Shown here: positions 962 to 7,920 of the stretch, in pieces
How the letters are laid out: each line of letters opens with the position of its first letter
Numbering within the stretch: position 1 is the stretch's first letter
DNA from: Pseudomonadota bacterium
GTDB taxonomy: Bacteria > Bdellovibrionota > Bacteriovoracia > Bacteriovoracales > Bacteriovoracaceae
NCBI GenBank assembly: GCA_027488375.1
Contig: JAIYBW010000002.1
Span: forward strand, 124,001 to 188,000
Length of the DNA: 64,000 nucleotides
Reading direction: 5' to 3'
Notes under the pieces: generated by a model
Told to the model about the DNA's origin: nothing
Database searches by the model: none
What the model saw: the letters and a program-made list of their open reading frames with translations, nothing else
Program-made: the position numbers and the translations under genes

Positions 962-1051
962 ATGGTATCAGATCATGACCTTTGGATTAGTCGATCACTA
1001 CTCATTTTCATGGGGAGCTTTATTTTTTTTAGTATTATAGGTGCTATCTAA
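962..1051 (+). CDS. Tiny single-pass membrane protein, 29 aa
   Basis: This short gene has an AAGGAG site 5 bases before the ATG and encodes 29 residues: a polar start (MVSDHDLWISRS) and one hydrophobic helix (LLIFMGSFIFFSIIGAI) up to the stop. The layout is typical of bacterial one-helix small membrane proteins. It is third in line behind lexA and the 65-residue protein, so it may belong to the same transcript. Its stop overlaps the convergent DUF5522-type gene by 4 bases. The call rests on the ribosome-binding site and the clean hydrophobic profile; the function is unknown. Confidence 0.55.
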   Translation: MVSDHDLWISRSLLIFMGSFIFFSIIGAI

Positions 1052-1425
1052 AAAAGATAAGCCTCTAATAATTCTTTTGAAATACCCTGATTTTGGAAAT
1101 GAGGTTTTAAAATGAAATGTTTTATAACAATATGATTTTTAAAAAGAACACCACACAATTGATTTTTTAGAAAAATAAAATTTATATTTTCATAATTAAA
1201 TGTTTTCCAATCTAAATGAGTATTGGATTCAACAAGCATGGTTTCTAAAAGAGATTTATCCTCTTCCTTAAAATCTTGAAATTGGAAACCATGCTTTTTT
1301 ATAGTAAAACCATAAGGACAATGTAGGCACGCTGAACGACAGCAGGTCCCCTTCTTTTTTAGGAATTCACTTGTAAATACAGTGTATCCCTCCATCGTTT
1401 CATAGCTTAGTTCCTTATTATTCAT
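1048..1425 (-). CDS. DUF5522-like cysteine-cluster protein with a truncated GNAT-like tail
   Basis: Residues 1-45 (from MNNKELSYE) resemble the DUF5522 family, short proteins with the pattern tCCrsaCLHCPYGF that look like a metal-binding cysteine cluster. The rest, about 75 residues, ends in a segment resembling GNAT acetyltransferase strand 4 and the acetyl-CoA loop (LKPHFQNQGISKELLEA). It then stops, lacking the second half of a GNAT domain. The reading frame is open for 27 more codons upstream (to 1506), but that part would overlap the divergent gene at 1446, and the family similarity begins at 1425. No clear ribosome-binding site is visible. DUF5522 call moderate; GNAT tail tentative. Confidence 0.6.
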   Translation of the reverse strand: MNNKELSYETMEGYTVFTSEFLKKKGTCCRSACLHCPYGFTIKKHGFQFQDFKEEDKSLLETMLVESNTHLDWKTFNYENINFIFLKNQLCGVLFKNHIVIKHFILKPHFQNQGISKELLEAYLF

Positions 1426-1445
1426 TTTTATATTATAATACAAAT

Positions 1446-2216
1446 ATGCTTCACTGGCCCTTTTTAATCTTATTAAGTACCCCAGGTTTTCTTCAAGAAA
1501 CTTCAATACAAGAATATTGTTTTGGCAGTTCTATGAGATCTTCTCAAGTTCTTGAAAATTTAAAATTCATCCTTGTTCCATCTGATCAATTAAAAAAAAA
1601 TGATCAATGTCTGACTGTTATAAGCTCCCCCCATCGCCGTGAACTCTTACAAAATTACATCCGAAAACTTGAGCCCGCAGTGCAAATTAGTTTTTCTTCA
1701 GAAGAGATTAAAAGAGATCCTTGTAAACTCAAGGTTGAAAGGATAAAAGTTTCAAATCAGGTGGAGAATGCAGGAGAAGCTAACATAGAGGGCAAAAATA
1801 TTTTCCTCACTGCGAGTTCGCAGCAATCATCTGGGAACAGTCATGAAACGATGACGCTTCAAACACTTAAAGACTTTGAGTTTCAAGTGCAAAAATCTTC
1901 AATCAAAGGAACTTGTCGCGCCATAACTCCAAATCGCTATGATATAACGATTGAGGTCCGGCAAAATCCTATAAAAAGATTTCCAGACCTTCCACCTGGG
2001 ACTGTCATTAATATGGCCAATTATCCACTGCCTGAGGCTCAAGAGACATCAGTTCTTTCAACATCCCTACAACTCACCACCGGACAGAAAATAGAAATAG
2101 GAAAAATCGTTAAGGATCTTCAAGATAAAAATCTAAAAACGAACCTCCCAACTGATGCGGTTGGAAGTGAAAAAATAAGCGATATATCAGAACAAGTTTT
2201 TCTTAGTATTGAATGA
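1446..2216 (+). CDS. Putative exported protein of unknown function, 256 aa
   Basis: No family is recognised. The N-terminus (MLHWPFLILLSTPGFLQ) is hydrophobic and could be a weak signal peptide, though it lacks the usual positive charge. The remainder is soluble and strand-rich, with a conserved-looking central part (TCRAITPNRYDITIEVRQNP) and a lysine-rich end. It is divergent from the DUF5522-like gene, with only 20 bases between the starts; TATTATAATA there could serve as a -10 box for both strands. No Shine-Dalgarno sequence is seen, so the start is uncertain. The next ATG, at 1533, would remove the leader. Confidence 0.6.
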   Translation: MLHWPFLILLSTPGFLQETSIQEYCFGSSMRSSQVLENLKFILVPSDQLKKNDQCLTVISSPHRRELLQNYIRKLEPAVQISFSSEEIKRDPCKLKVERIKVSNQVENAGEANIEGKNIFLTASSQQSSGNSHETMTLQTLKDFEFQVQKSSIKGTCRAITPNRYDITIEVRQNPIKRFPDLPPGTVINMANYPLPEAQETSVLSTSLQLTTGQKIEIGKIVKDLQDKNLKTNLPTDAVGSEKISDISEQVFLSIE

Positions 2217-2430: not shown

Positions 2431-2447
2431 TTGGCATTTGAGTTGCT
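2431..2447 (+). promoter_or_regulatory. Sigma-54 (-24/-12) type promoter upstream of structured RNA 1
   Basis: The 17-mer TTGGCATTTGAGTTGCT fits the sigma-54 consensus YTGGCACGRNNNTTGCW: TGGCA and TTGCT are intact, and the GG and GC dinucleotides are separated by exactly 10 bases. Counting from -12 puts transcription start near 2458, 3 bases before the closing stem of the RNA. The same arrangement recurs before the second RNA copy. A sigma-54 promoter would need an enhancer-binding activator; no binding site was identified. Confidence 0.6.
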
Positions 2448-2457
2448 CTCTCTAGCT

Positions 2458-2574
2458 TAAGCAGGGGGAGATGAACTCCACAAAAATTTCAATAAAAGTC
2501 CCTGGCAGATCAGATTAACCACTTGATCGGCCCCAAAAAATCCCGCCTTTTCTTATCACCGTTCCTTCCTCTGC
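2458..2574 (+). ncRNA. Structured small RNA, copy 1 of a tandem pair
   Basis: The predicted RNA begins with a 10-bp closing stem: GCAGGGGGAG (2461-2470) pairs with CTTCCTCTGC (2565-2574). Directly after the 5' strand comes GATGAACTCCACAAAA (2470-2485), and just before the 3' strand ATCACCGTTC (2555-2564). Both blocks are identical in copy 2, while the interior differs. A small internal hairpin (GATCA/TGATC) lies between 2500 and 2522. The stem differs in sequence between copies but keeps its pairing, which is evidence for RNA structure. There is no open reading frame. I could not match it to a known riboswitch or RNA family. Confidence 0.65.
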
Positions 2575-2586
2575 AGGTTATTTTAT

Positions 2587-2615
2587 AAAAAGCCCTCTTC
2601 GAGGGCTTTTTATTT
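2587..2615 (+). terminator. Intrinsic terminator (bidirectional-looking) after structured RNA 1
   Basis: A perfect hairpin, AAAAAGCCCTC / GAGGGCTTTTT with loop TTC (2587-2611), is followed by ATTTT. It lies 12 bases after the closing stem of the first RNA copy, as expected for the end of a small RNA gene. The other strand also has a T-rich end, so it could also stop transcripts coming from the rapA operon. Confidence 0.85.
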
Positions 2616-2726
2616 TGGTGTCAAAGATAGAGACCTCGGTGGCAAACGGTCACTCAAGGTGACAGGCCGGCCCCAGGTTATTTTTTCACGATAATTAAAA
2701 TTTAAGGAGTTAGGGGCTTCTAGGAA

Positions 2727-2743
2727 TTGGCACTTAACATGCT
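2727..2743 (+). promoter_or_regulatory. Sigma-54 (-24/-12) type promoter upstream of structured RNA 2
   Basis: TTGGCACTTAACATGCT matches the sigma-54 consensus at TGGCAC and TGCT, with the required 10 bases between GG and GC. It predicts a start near 2754, 4 bases before the closing stem of RNA copy 2. It differs from the copy 1 promoter in the spacer while keeping the invariant positions. Confidence 0.6.
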
Positions 2744-2753
2744 TTATAGGTTC

Positions 2754-2870
2754 TTGAGCTGAGGGTGATGAACTCCACAAAAGTTCCCAAAAAGATCACC
2801 GGAATTTGAATCTAAACCAATTCAAATTTCTCCCCCTACCGCCAACCACCATCACCGTTCCACTCTCAGC
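2754..2870 (+). ncRNA. Structured small RNA, copy 2 of a tandem pair
   Basis: The closing stem GCTGAGGGTG (2758-2767) pairs with CACTCTCAGC (2861-2870) in all ten positions, with compensating changes relative to copy 1. The conserved blocks GATGAACTCCACAAAA (2767-2782) and ATCACCGTTC (2851-2860) sit in the same places. The interior has its own 9-bp hairpin, AATTTGAAT (2803-2811) with ATTCAAATT (2820-2828), so the fold is retained while the sequence is not. The stem is followed by AGGTTTTTT, a possible weak termination signal, 12 bases before the end of the convergent GNAT gene. Confidence 0.65.
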
Positions 2871-2887
2871 AGGTTTTTTCTAAGATT

Positions 2888-3343
2888 CTAATTTTTTAAC
2901 CACTCAAACAAATGATAATGCTCACCAGACATACCCAACGATTCATAAACTTTTTGAGCATCATGATTCGACTTATCGACGTAAAGCCTTAAACCTCTAA
3001 GATCATTTCCAGCTTGCACCAAATTTTTTAGATGGGAGTAAAGCGCCTTAAAAACTCCAGACTTTCTAAATGTTGGAAGCACATAAACGGAGTGAATCCA
3101 AAGCACAGTTCCATTTCTCCAATCACTCCATTCAGGAATAGTGAGGAGACACCCCACCACTCTCCCCCCTGATTCTGCAATCCAATACTTCCCCTTACTG
3201 GGATCATCAAAAACAGCACTTACTCCATTCTGAACAGTAGGAGGATCCAGTTTCAGCTTCTCTGTTTCCCAGGCCATTTGAACTTGAAAGTCTGCAATCG
3301 TATCAATATCAAAAAGCAATCCTGGTCGTATTAAGATACCCAT
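2888..3343 (-). CDS. GNAT family N-acetyltransferase
   Basis: This is a complete single-domain GNAT acetyltransferase of 151 residues, transferring an acetyl group from acetyl-CoA to an unknown amine. It shows strand 4 and the CoA-binding loop at IHSVYVLPTFRKSGVFKALY (about residues 83-102) and the C-terminal motif RLYVDKSNHDAQKVYESLGM (about 119-138). It is the last gene of the rapA-thioredoxin-DUF6952 operon, and its ATG shares one base with the stop of the gene before it, suggesting coupled translation. The substrate cannot be deduced. Confidence 0.88.
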   Translation of the reverse strand: MGILIRPGLLFDIDTIADFQVQMAWETEKLKLDPPTVQNGVSAVFDDPSKGKYWIAESGGRVVGCLLTIPEWSDWRNGTVLWIHSVYVLPTFRKSGVFKALYSHLKNLVQAGNDLRGLRLYVDKSNHDAQKVYESLGMSGEHYHLFEWLKN

Positions 3344-3579
3344 TATTTTAAAACCCCTCGCACTCGCTTTGAGAATTCTCTGACCGCTTCATTGATCGCC
3401 ATGCCTTGATCAATATAACTACGAAGTTCAGCGGCCTGGAGATAGTCACTCATCTGATCACCAGCATCTTCTTGAGTTTTGACTGGAGCGACACCAGTGG
3501 TCTCAAACTCATCCGCAAACTTATTTAATTCCTCAATCTTATATTTCTCAGCTAATTCTTTAATTGATTTGATATCCAT
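3343..3579 (-). CDS. DUF6952-like small protein next to thioredoxin
   Basis: This is a 78-residue soluble, charged protein. The opening MDIKSIKELAEKYKIEELNK and the ending INEAVREFSKRVRGVLK resemble DUF6952, a short family often found beside thioredoxin-like genes. That matches its position 3 bases after a thioredoxin-like gene. Its Shine-Dalgarno (AAGG) lies within the end of the thioredoxin gene, so translation is probably coupled. Role unknown; the genomic pairing suggests redox or thiol-related work. Confidence 0.7.
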   Translation of the reverse strand: MDIKSIKELAEKYKIEELNKFADEFETTGVAPVKTQEDAGDQMSDYLQAAELRSYIDQGMAINEAVREFSKRVRGVLK

Positions 3580-6711: not shown

Positions 6712-7920
6712 ATGATGAAAAAAAACATTTTTGCTCTGATTTTGTTAATGGTTTTTATTCCAAAACTCTCTATGGCCCAGGCCATTAAACCTGGATTCTG
6801 GAAGTTTATTTTAAAAACTGATAATGCTGACATTCCTTTCTTGATAAAATTTCGATTTCAAGATCAAAAATTAACTGGAACGCTACACAATGGGGGAGAA
6901 AAAATACCTCTGCTAGAGATGACAACAAATGATAAATCACTCTTAATTCCACTGGGTTCTTATGAACTGGTTTTGGAACTCAAAATTCGAGATGAAAAAA
7001 ACCTCCAAGGACACCTTGTTCGATTAAATAAAAATCCAGTAACGAAAATTCCAGTCTTCGGGATCTATGGAGTAAAAAGGCGATTTGAAATTAAAAAAAA
7101 TAGACCGGCCACTGTCAATATACAGGGGAAATGGGCCTTAGAATTAACATCTGGGGATTCAGAAAAAATATCTGCGATAGGGCAATTTGTTCAGACTAAA
7201 AATAAATTTAGTGGCTCAATCCTGACTCCCACTGGAGATTATCGCTATATTCAAGGTCAAGTTTTTGGTGAGGAATTTGAGGGGGCCAGTTTTGATGGAG
7301 TTTATAATTATCTTTTCAAAGGTAGCCTTAAAAATGGATTAATGGAGGCGCAAATTCTCTCCAACTCTCGCACTAAAGTGACTGGAGCAAAGAGTGATAA
7401 AGCGACATTGCCAGATGCTCTCAATCAAACACAACTTTCTGAATTAAAATTTATTTTCCCTGATCTTAAAGGGCAAAATGTTACTTTGACTCATGAGAAA
7501 TTTAAAAATAAACCCGTTATTGTCCAGATCTTTGGTTCATGGTGCCCAAATTGTATCGATGAAATGAAATATCTCATCCCCTGGTATCAAAAAAACTCCA
7601 AGCGAGGTATTGAAGTCATTGCCCTGGCCTTTGAAAGAAGCCTGGGAATTGAAGAAGCAACAAGACAATTAATTAAAGTTCAAAAAAGATTTGAAGTTCC
7701 TTATGTCATCCTTCAGGCCGGTTCAACCAGTGAGGATAAGCCTGCAGACAAATTATCAAGTCTAAAAAATTTCATCTCTTTTCCAACAACTATCTTTCTT
7801 AATAAGAAACATGAAGTTATTAAAGTCCATGCTGGCTTTAATGGCCCGAGCACTGGTGAATTCTACGTCAAATGGCAAAAAGAATTTAATCTCATCGTCG
7901 ATGAACTCTTGAGAAAATAA
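6712..7920 (+). CDS. Exported TlpA-like thiol-disulfide protein with an N-terminal beta domain
   Basis: A signal peptide (MMKKNIFALILLMVFIPKLSMAQA) is followed by about 220 residues of strand-rich sequence and then a TlpA/ResA-type thioredoxin domain from about residue 245. The redox motif is SWCPNC, followed by DEMKYLIPWYQK as in this family, and the cis-Pro region is SFPTTIFLN. The N-terminal half resembles the domain often found before TlpA modules in Bacteroidota-like proteins. It should act in the periplasm on disulfides or as a thiol reductant. It is divergent from rapA and followed after 1 base by a membrane gene. Confidence 0.85.
   Translation: MMKKNIFALILLMVFIPKLSMAQAIKPGFWKFILKTDNADIPFLIKFRFQDQKLTGTLHNGGEKIPLLEMTTNDKSLLIPLGSYELVLELKIRDEKNLQGHLVRLNKNPVTKIPVFGIYGVKRRFEIKKNRPATVNIQGKWALELTSGDSEKISAIGQFVQTKNKFSGSILTPTGDYRYIQGQVFGEEFEGASFDGVYNYLFKGSLKNGLMEAQILSNSRTKVTGAKSDKATLPDALNQTQLSELKFIFPDLKGQNVTLTHEKFKNKPVIVQIFGSWCPNCIDEMKYLIPWYQKNSKRGIEVIALAFERSLGIEEATRQLIKVQKRFEVPYVILQAGSTSEDKPADKLSSLKNFISFPTTIFLNKKHEVIKVHAGFNGPSTGEFYVKWQKEFNLIVDELLRK

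Follow-up and report, generated by a model that had tools for sequence, protein, structure and literature searches.

Paired, stem-closed putative small RNAs behind sigma-54-type promoters form a new family in Bacteriovoracaceae

Small RNAs linked to sigma-54 are known from several bacterial groups. The Qrr RNAs of Vibrio occur in several copies, are transcribed from sigma-54 promoters under enhancer activation and depend on Hfq, while CrcZ and CrcY of pseudomonads sequester Hfq-Crc. For sigma-54-linked RNA regulation in hosts without detected Hfq, the sole close parallel known to us is Pxr. In the parts of the published accounts drawn on here, Pxr of Myxococcus and its relatives occurs in a host without hfq, has an enhancer region upstream of its predicted sigma-54 promoter, folds into two or three successive stem-loops and adjoins its activator gene nla19, and Cystobacter carries tandem Pxr paralogues, each with its own sigma-54 promoter (PMC5568312, PMC5684412). 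Bdellovibrio expresses the attack-phase small RNA merRNA, which contains a c-di-GMP riboswitch according to the portion of the report used here (PMC3627812).

We describe a pair of RNA elements from a 64,000-nt stretch of a Bacteriovoracaceae contig (the window). The two stand on the same strand in a gap between a 256-aa reading frame on the left (1446-2216, + strand) and a convergent GNAT acetyltransferase gene on the right (2888-3343, - strand). The features of the locus are as follows.

2319-2346, + strand: enhancer-like dyad of copy 1, TGCCCC (2319-2324) ... GTGGCA (2341-2346), lying some 90-113 bp ahead of the -24 box
2431-2447, + strand: -24/-12 (sigma-54-type) promoter of copy 1, TTGGCA-N7-TGCT, with TGGC-N8-TGC at 2432-2446
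2461-2574, + strand: RNA copy 1 (first paralogue), 114 nt, with P1 closing stem 2461-2470/2565-2574 of 10 bp
2473-2485, + strand: conserved 5' loop segment of copy 1, GAAC + UCCACAAAA, in which GAAC (2473-2476) pairs with a distant GUUC (2561-2564)
2585-2613, + strand: terminator-like hairpin downstream of copy 1
2669-2674, + strand: possible, weak half-site, GGCCCC, of an enhancer for copy 2 (such regions are enriched in a degenerate half-site)
2727-2743, + strand: -24/-12 (sigma-54-type) promoter of copy 2, with TGGC-N8-TGC at 2728-2742
2758-2870, + strand: RNA copy 2 (second paralogue), 113 nt, with P1 closing stem 2758-2767/2861-2870 of 10 bp

A sequence-only reading of this DNA had pointed to two elements of 113-114 bases lying 297 bases apart, closed by 10-bp stems that differ in sequence and are fully paired. 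The start-to-start distance is indeed 297 nt, and the stems, GCAGGGGGAG/CTTCCTCTGC and GCTGAGGGTG/CACTCTCAGC, hold 10 pairs each, of which two and one, respectively, are G-U. The segments that it named as common to the two copies, GATGAACTCCACAAAA and ATCACCGTTC, are found in both, inside the closing stem and together with one internal hairpin. On the window alone, the elements do not clearly exceed chance: TGGC-N8-TGC occurs 4 times against 3.88 expected, i.e., at chance frequency, and folding of each copy compared with its shuffles gave a z of -1.0 for copy 1 (slightly better) and -3.9 for copy 2. We judge the two elements to be real because their homologues show a family, covariation and an in-register promoter, and not because of window statistics.

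Comparison with described RNAs shows that the family is new, of the kind represented by sigma-54-driven multicopy small RNAs, with an unusual closed architecture. In the window no Rfam 15 family attains gathering score, and seven further related loci yield only a tRNA; the best weak match, ylbH (22.3 bits, where gathering requires 50), was set aside, as it falls on the opposite strand, over the terminator. We found no published description of these RNAs, as judged by titles and abstracts. The suggestion of a possibly undescribed regulatory RNA in this lineage is supported (no Rfam match, homologues found within the family under strict search filters); the regulatory role is one that we infer. 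The elements are also not Qrr, as had been stated, since Qrr stays below gathering score in the window and is absent even among the 14 weak Rfam matches there. Qrr had been offered as a parallel, and it is apt for several copies, sigma-54-type promoters and, probably, enhancer activation. Its fold is different, however, and it is a weak model for mechanism, being Hfq-dependent, whereas Hfq was undetected in 8/8 of these host genomes by a search that finds it in 5/14 control genomes. CrcZ and CrcY are likewise parallel small RNAs with sigma-54/CbrB promoters and C/A-rich sequence, but there Hfq-Crc is sequestered, in contrast to the present hosts, in which no Hfq is detected. With the attack-phase small RNAs of Bdellovibrio, merRNA among them, the present elements share a predatory host lineage and the lack of a downstream reading frame, but merRNA holds a c-di-GMP riboswitch (PMC3627812), and no c-di-GMP riboswitch family was matched here.

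Pxr is the closest known system in setting, which we treat as an analogy based on excerpts of its description. The shared points are the sigma-54 promoter, a host without detected Hfq and tandem paralogues. Pxr differs in its row of stem-loops, whereas here a single closing stem surrounds everything, and in adjoining nla19, whereas here, among the frames typed, no activator gene was identified next to the pair. The type-2 stem GCUGARGGUG resembles the arm GCUGAAGGUGG of Pxr stem-loop 1, a lead taken from by-eye comparison with a published primer, and the conserved loop ACUCCANAAAAG is missing from those stretches of Pxr that primers display, which are parts of pxr and not the whole.

In the predatory family Bacteriovoracaceae, nearly all genomes of one genus carry the element. 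The first reading had suggested a covariance-model search for homologues with stem covariation, and such a model, built from 34 copies (alignment A2), finds the element in 25/26 genomes of the genus, with covariation above shuffles (below). The sole genus genome without a match, G021, is 59% complete. Of the carriers in the genus, 21 genomes hold two copies, 2 hold a single copy, 1 holds three and 1 holds four; one of the four copies in the last case is cut by a contig end, and in the three-copy genome (G018, C181:3342-6606) the second paralogue is doubled. In other genera of the family, single copies occur in one g37 genome and three g5 genomes. Many of the carrier genomes presumably come from fresh water. 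The weakest whole copy accepted scores 66.9 bits, and further weak matches within carrier genomes reach 35.6 bits, for a copy truncated by the end of its contig, and 25.3 bits. Outside the 29 carrier genomes, nothing among 368 genomes of the phylum exceeds 22.7 bits in a search that scored nine candidates per genome under strict filters, so that distant members may be missed.

With blastn against 58 relatives (E up to 0.1), matches appear in 30, and the convincing ones belong to the same genus. A DNA-pattern search of genome contigs returned 24 stretches, 21 of them Bacteriovorax-type (labeled Bacteriovoracaceae, Bacteriovorax stolpii or Halobacteriovorax, and from metagenome-assembled genomes) and 3 others. 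Among these three, an Aquimarina stretch (L109:4190-4460, 30.9 bits) was judged unrelated: it consists of a long and perfect inverted repeat, flanked by two genes of the same strand, A/T-rich inside, without a -24/-12 motif upstream, and had been chosen by a pattern that holds the core of the model. The other two score at most 13.8 bits with the model. Viral contigs, plasmids and phages gave no matches to the element.

First and second paralogues form separate groups in a tree (support values were not considered), and because they do, the duplication looks older than the genus.

The fold is established by compensatory change among the homologues, which upholds the earlier proposal of structured RNAs under selection on pairing. 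Alignment A3, comprising 52 of the 55 copies that are complete or almost so (it omits both G012 copies and the truncated one of G001), has standard pairs in 90.7% of cells and double-sided changes at 22/26 pairs. Double-sided cells number 282 against 95.8 in shuffled alignments (0/500 shuffles reach 282), and pairing falls to 41-56% when partners are slid by 1-3 columns; A3 is fitted to its own model and its orthologues are not independent, and single positions were therefore read as well. The GAAC of the 5' loop segment has as its partner a GUUC about 85-95 nt downstream. In 5/52 copies GGAC replaces GAAC, and in all five the distant partner is then GUCC (3) or GUCU (2), while the nearby GUUC (4) or UUUC (1) is unaltered. 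These changes indicate that a second helix continues the closing stem beyond a small internal loop. A local GAAC/AGUUC hairpin as the main fold was rejected, since the distant partner changes with GGAC and the nearby one does not. The nearby GUUC is nevertheless present in 43/52 copies, and may be conserved for another reason or may mark local pairing as an alternative state.

Open positions are highly conserved in sequence beside these covarying stems, and the open strands contain very little G (5.8%, 1.1% and 5.5%, vs. 27.4% in paired columns). CUCC is found in 48/52 copies and UCCC in 51/52. The CUCCANAAAA loop varies at one position (C/A/T). A small protein or conserved reading frame was rejected, as loop lengths vary by single bases between copies and AUGAAC is intact in only 29/52.

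The -24/-12 element (GG-N10-GC) lies in register in all 51 copies with upstream DNA (TGGC-N8-TGC in 50, CGGC-N8-TGC in 1); A always follows its first part and T its second, and its distance to the P1 stem is 14-15 nt in 47/51 copies and 12-13 nt in 4. RpoN is encoded in 8/8 genomes tested, above the family cut-off. Both results speak for the sigma-54-type promoters with -24/-12 geometry that the sequence-only reading had recognized.

Upstream sites differ between paralogues. The dyad TGCC[CA]C-N10-20-G[GT]GGCA is present in 14/24 upstream regions of the first paralogue, which are orthologues and not independent, and in none of 300 Markov shuffles. It is found in 0/27 upstream regions of second-paralogue or single-copy elements. 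There, a degenerate half-site occurs in 18/27 regions (Markov resamplings: mean 4.05, maximum 9), and the strict half-site is not enriched (4/27 vs. a maximum of 5 in resamplings of the same kind). Because the dyad is enriched upstream of the first paralogue, an enhancer-binding activator for copy 1 is likely; that the same activator serves copy 2 is a guess. Among the frames typed in the window, no activator gene adjoining the RNA pair was identified.

Copy 1 had also been said to end in a terminator. Its downstream hairpin agrees, and a terminator by a strict rule (perfect stem of at least 6 pairs plus a T run) likewise follows 24/25 first-paralogue copies. By that rule a terminator is present after 6/27 second-paralogue or single-copy elements and absent after 21/27.

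Taken together with the absence of detectable Hfq, these features fit a reading to which we give an even chance: that the elements are ancient, paralogous small RNAs, activated through enhancer and sigma-54, independent of Hfq and probably acting in trans by mRNA pairing. The two elements would be stand-alone genes for paralogous regulatory RNAs of about 115 nt, with copy 1 reaching about 155 nt when its terminator is included. An enhancer-binding activator at the upstream sites would open sigma-54 RNA polymerase at each -24/-12 promoter, and the RNAs would be made only on signal. Transcripts would start 2-4 nt before the 10-bp closing stem, which continues via the small internal loop into GAAC:GUUC. 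The resulting ring would expose a hairpin at its apex together with two open strands that are conserved and hold almost no G (ACUCCANAAAAGUUCA, UCCC and a C/A-rich 3' side). Without Hfq, the open strands (ACUCCA, UCCC) would most likely base-pair to several mRNAs at their G-rich Shine-Dalgarno regions, which would block translation, and differences in loop and stem between the paralogues would lead to distinct targets or stabilities. Low G content may also do no more than keep the loops open, which counts against the pairing reading, and the one-base variation of the CUCCANAAAA loop disfavors a fixed long pairing. That most second-paralogue or single-copy elements have no terminator by the strict rule also speaks against the overall account.

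A strict search for targets of the form TTTTGTGGAG-N3-10-ATG in the 26 genus genomes gave 45 matches, vs. 20 for the reversed pattern. No recurrent target stands: among the 30 of 45 loci examined (two being one site), only nadA appears in more than one genome. As a target nadA (3 genomes) was rejected, since the matching stretch falls within the coding sequence, where it specifies the conserved FCGVHFMAE. In the genome of the window itself, a TTTTGTGGAG start-site match precedes a predicted OPT-like oligopeptide transporter gene (G000:C7:551009-551027, L149).

The main rival to mRNA pairing, which we regard as possible though somewhat unlikely, is that the RNAs are decoys that would titrate an RNA-binding protein other than Hfq through the GAAC internal loop, the CUCCA strand and the AACCA apical loop. 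High conservation at open positions beside covarying stems would suit a protein-binding surface, as would the C/A-rich, G-poor open strands, and the arrangement of two parallel copies, each with a sigma-54-type promoter, is similar to that of CrcZ/CrcY. Against this, Hfq is undetected in the genomes searched, and no candidate protein has been identified. CsrA is present in 8/8 genomes, yet a CsrA decoy of the CsrB/RsmZ type was rejected, as a fully unpaired GGA occurs in just 2/52 copies and 10 have no GGA at all. Undetected Hfq, the rarity of unpaired GGA and the G-poor loops together favor Hfq-independent mRNA pairing in trans.

A bolder version of the pairing reading, which we hold to be doubtful, would make these RNAs a new small-RNA class: a stem-closed, Hfq-free ring with two G-free, Shine-Dalgarno-complementary strands, encoded by two diverged, sigma-54-switched paralogues kept throughout the history of a predatory genus and perhaps serving a life-cycle transition (prey contact or starvation). 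The family would tie sigma-54 signaling to RNA regulation in a predatory lineage without detected Hfq. Side-by-side paralogues across nearly the whole genus offer a natural system for studying division of work between RNA paralogues, and the predicted start sites, RpoN dependence and compensatory changes are directly testable in any cultured relative that carries the element.

Gene neighborhood bears on the remaining alternatives. The pair usually has a LexA-side block on one flank and a GNAT-DUF6952-thioredoxin-helicase block on the other (of 20 stretches compared, 17 have the LexA cluster and 14 the GNAT cluster). Neighboring copies on one contig share a strand in 22/22 pairs and are separated by 148-227 bp in 15 pairs and by 2.5-5.1 kb in 7. 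All seven wide gaps (L071, L072, L073, L077-L080) contain a 138-aa-type gene, which has no Pfam match, and a 620-aa Lnb_N/DUF7844 gene, both opposite to the RNAs. In G079 the RNA adjoins an MscS-like gene instead, and such a placement beside other genes fits the expectation for a trans-acting gene.

A cis-acting leader or riboswitch of a neighboring gene is very unlikely. It would find its best case in two of the three g5 carriers (G142, G029), where a 299-aa same-strand frame follows the RNA by about 90-100 nt without an obvious terminator; the encoded proteins (L075:7534-8433, L076:7863-8762) belong to an unknown family and are 68% identical to each other. In the window, however, a terminator follows copy 1, a convergent gene follows copy 2 and the next same-strand frame with a recognized neighborhood starts at 6712; elsewhere, the neighboring gene is convergent in G140 and G079, and first-paralogue copies are nearly always followed by a terminator. 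Even less probable is antisense regulation of the GNAT acetyltransferase gene by read-through from copy 2. That gene lies tail to tail with copy 2, 17 bases past it, and its cluster recurs in most stretches, but a terminator and copy 2 itself separate copy 1 from it, several genomes have different genes after copy 2 (L071, L077, L081) and the compensatory stem changes would go unexplained. Least probable of all is a repeat or selfish element with no regulatory role, such as a recombination repeat collecting cargo genes between its copies, as the constant gene content of the 7/22 wide gaps might suggest, given that genomes as a rule hold just two copies, that promoter, enhancer dyad and terminator are conserved and that the paralogues keep distinct stems across the genus (in the tree, read without support values). 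A small RNA pair acting by mRNA pairing remains our preferred reading.

Three features of the neighborhood deserve mention in their own right. DUF6952 (window 3343-3579) occurs in 4/48 genera of the family and 24/124 genomes, and three of these four genera carry the RNA; within 1.5 kb on each side of DUF6952 in G028, G141, G079 and G001, nothing scores above 9.3 bits with the model. At window 1048-1506, a DUF5522 domain is joined to a weak GNAT match and overlaps the start of the opposite-strand frame 1446-2216. Proteins with a Peptidase_S74 (endosialidase chaperone) domain, like tail-fiber or surface proteins, are encoded beside or between the RNAs at L072:7166-8752 and L071:13899-15992.
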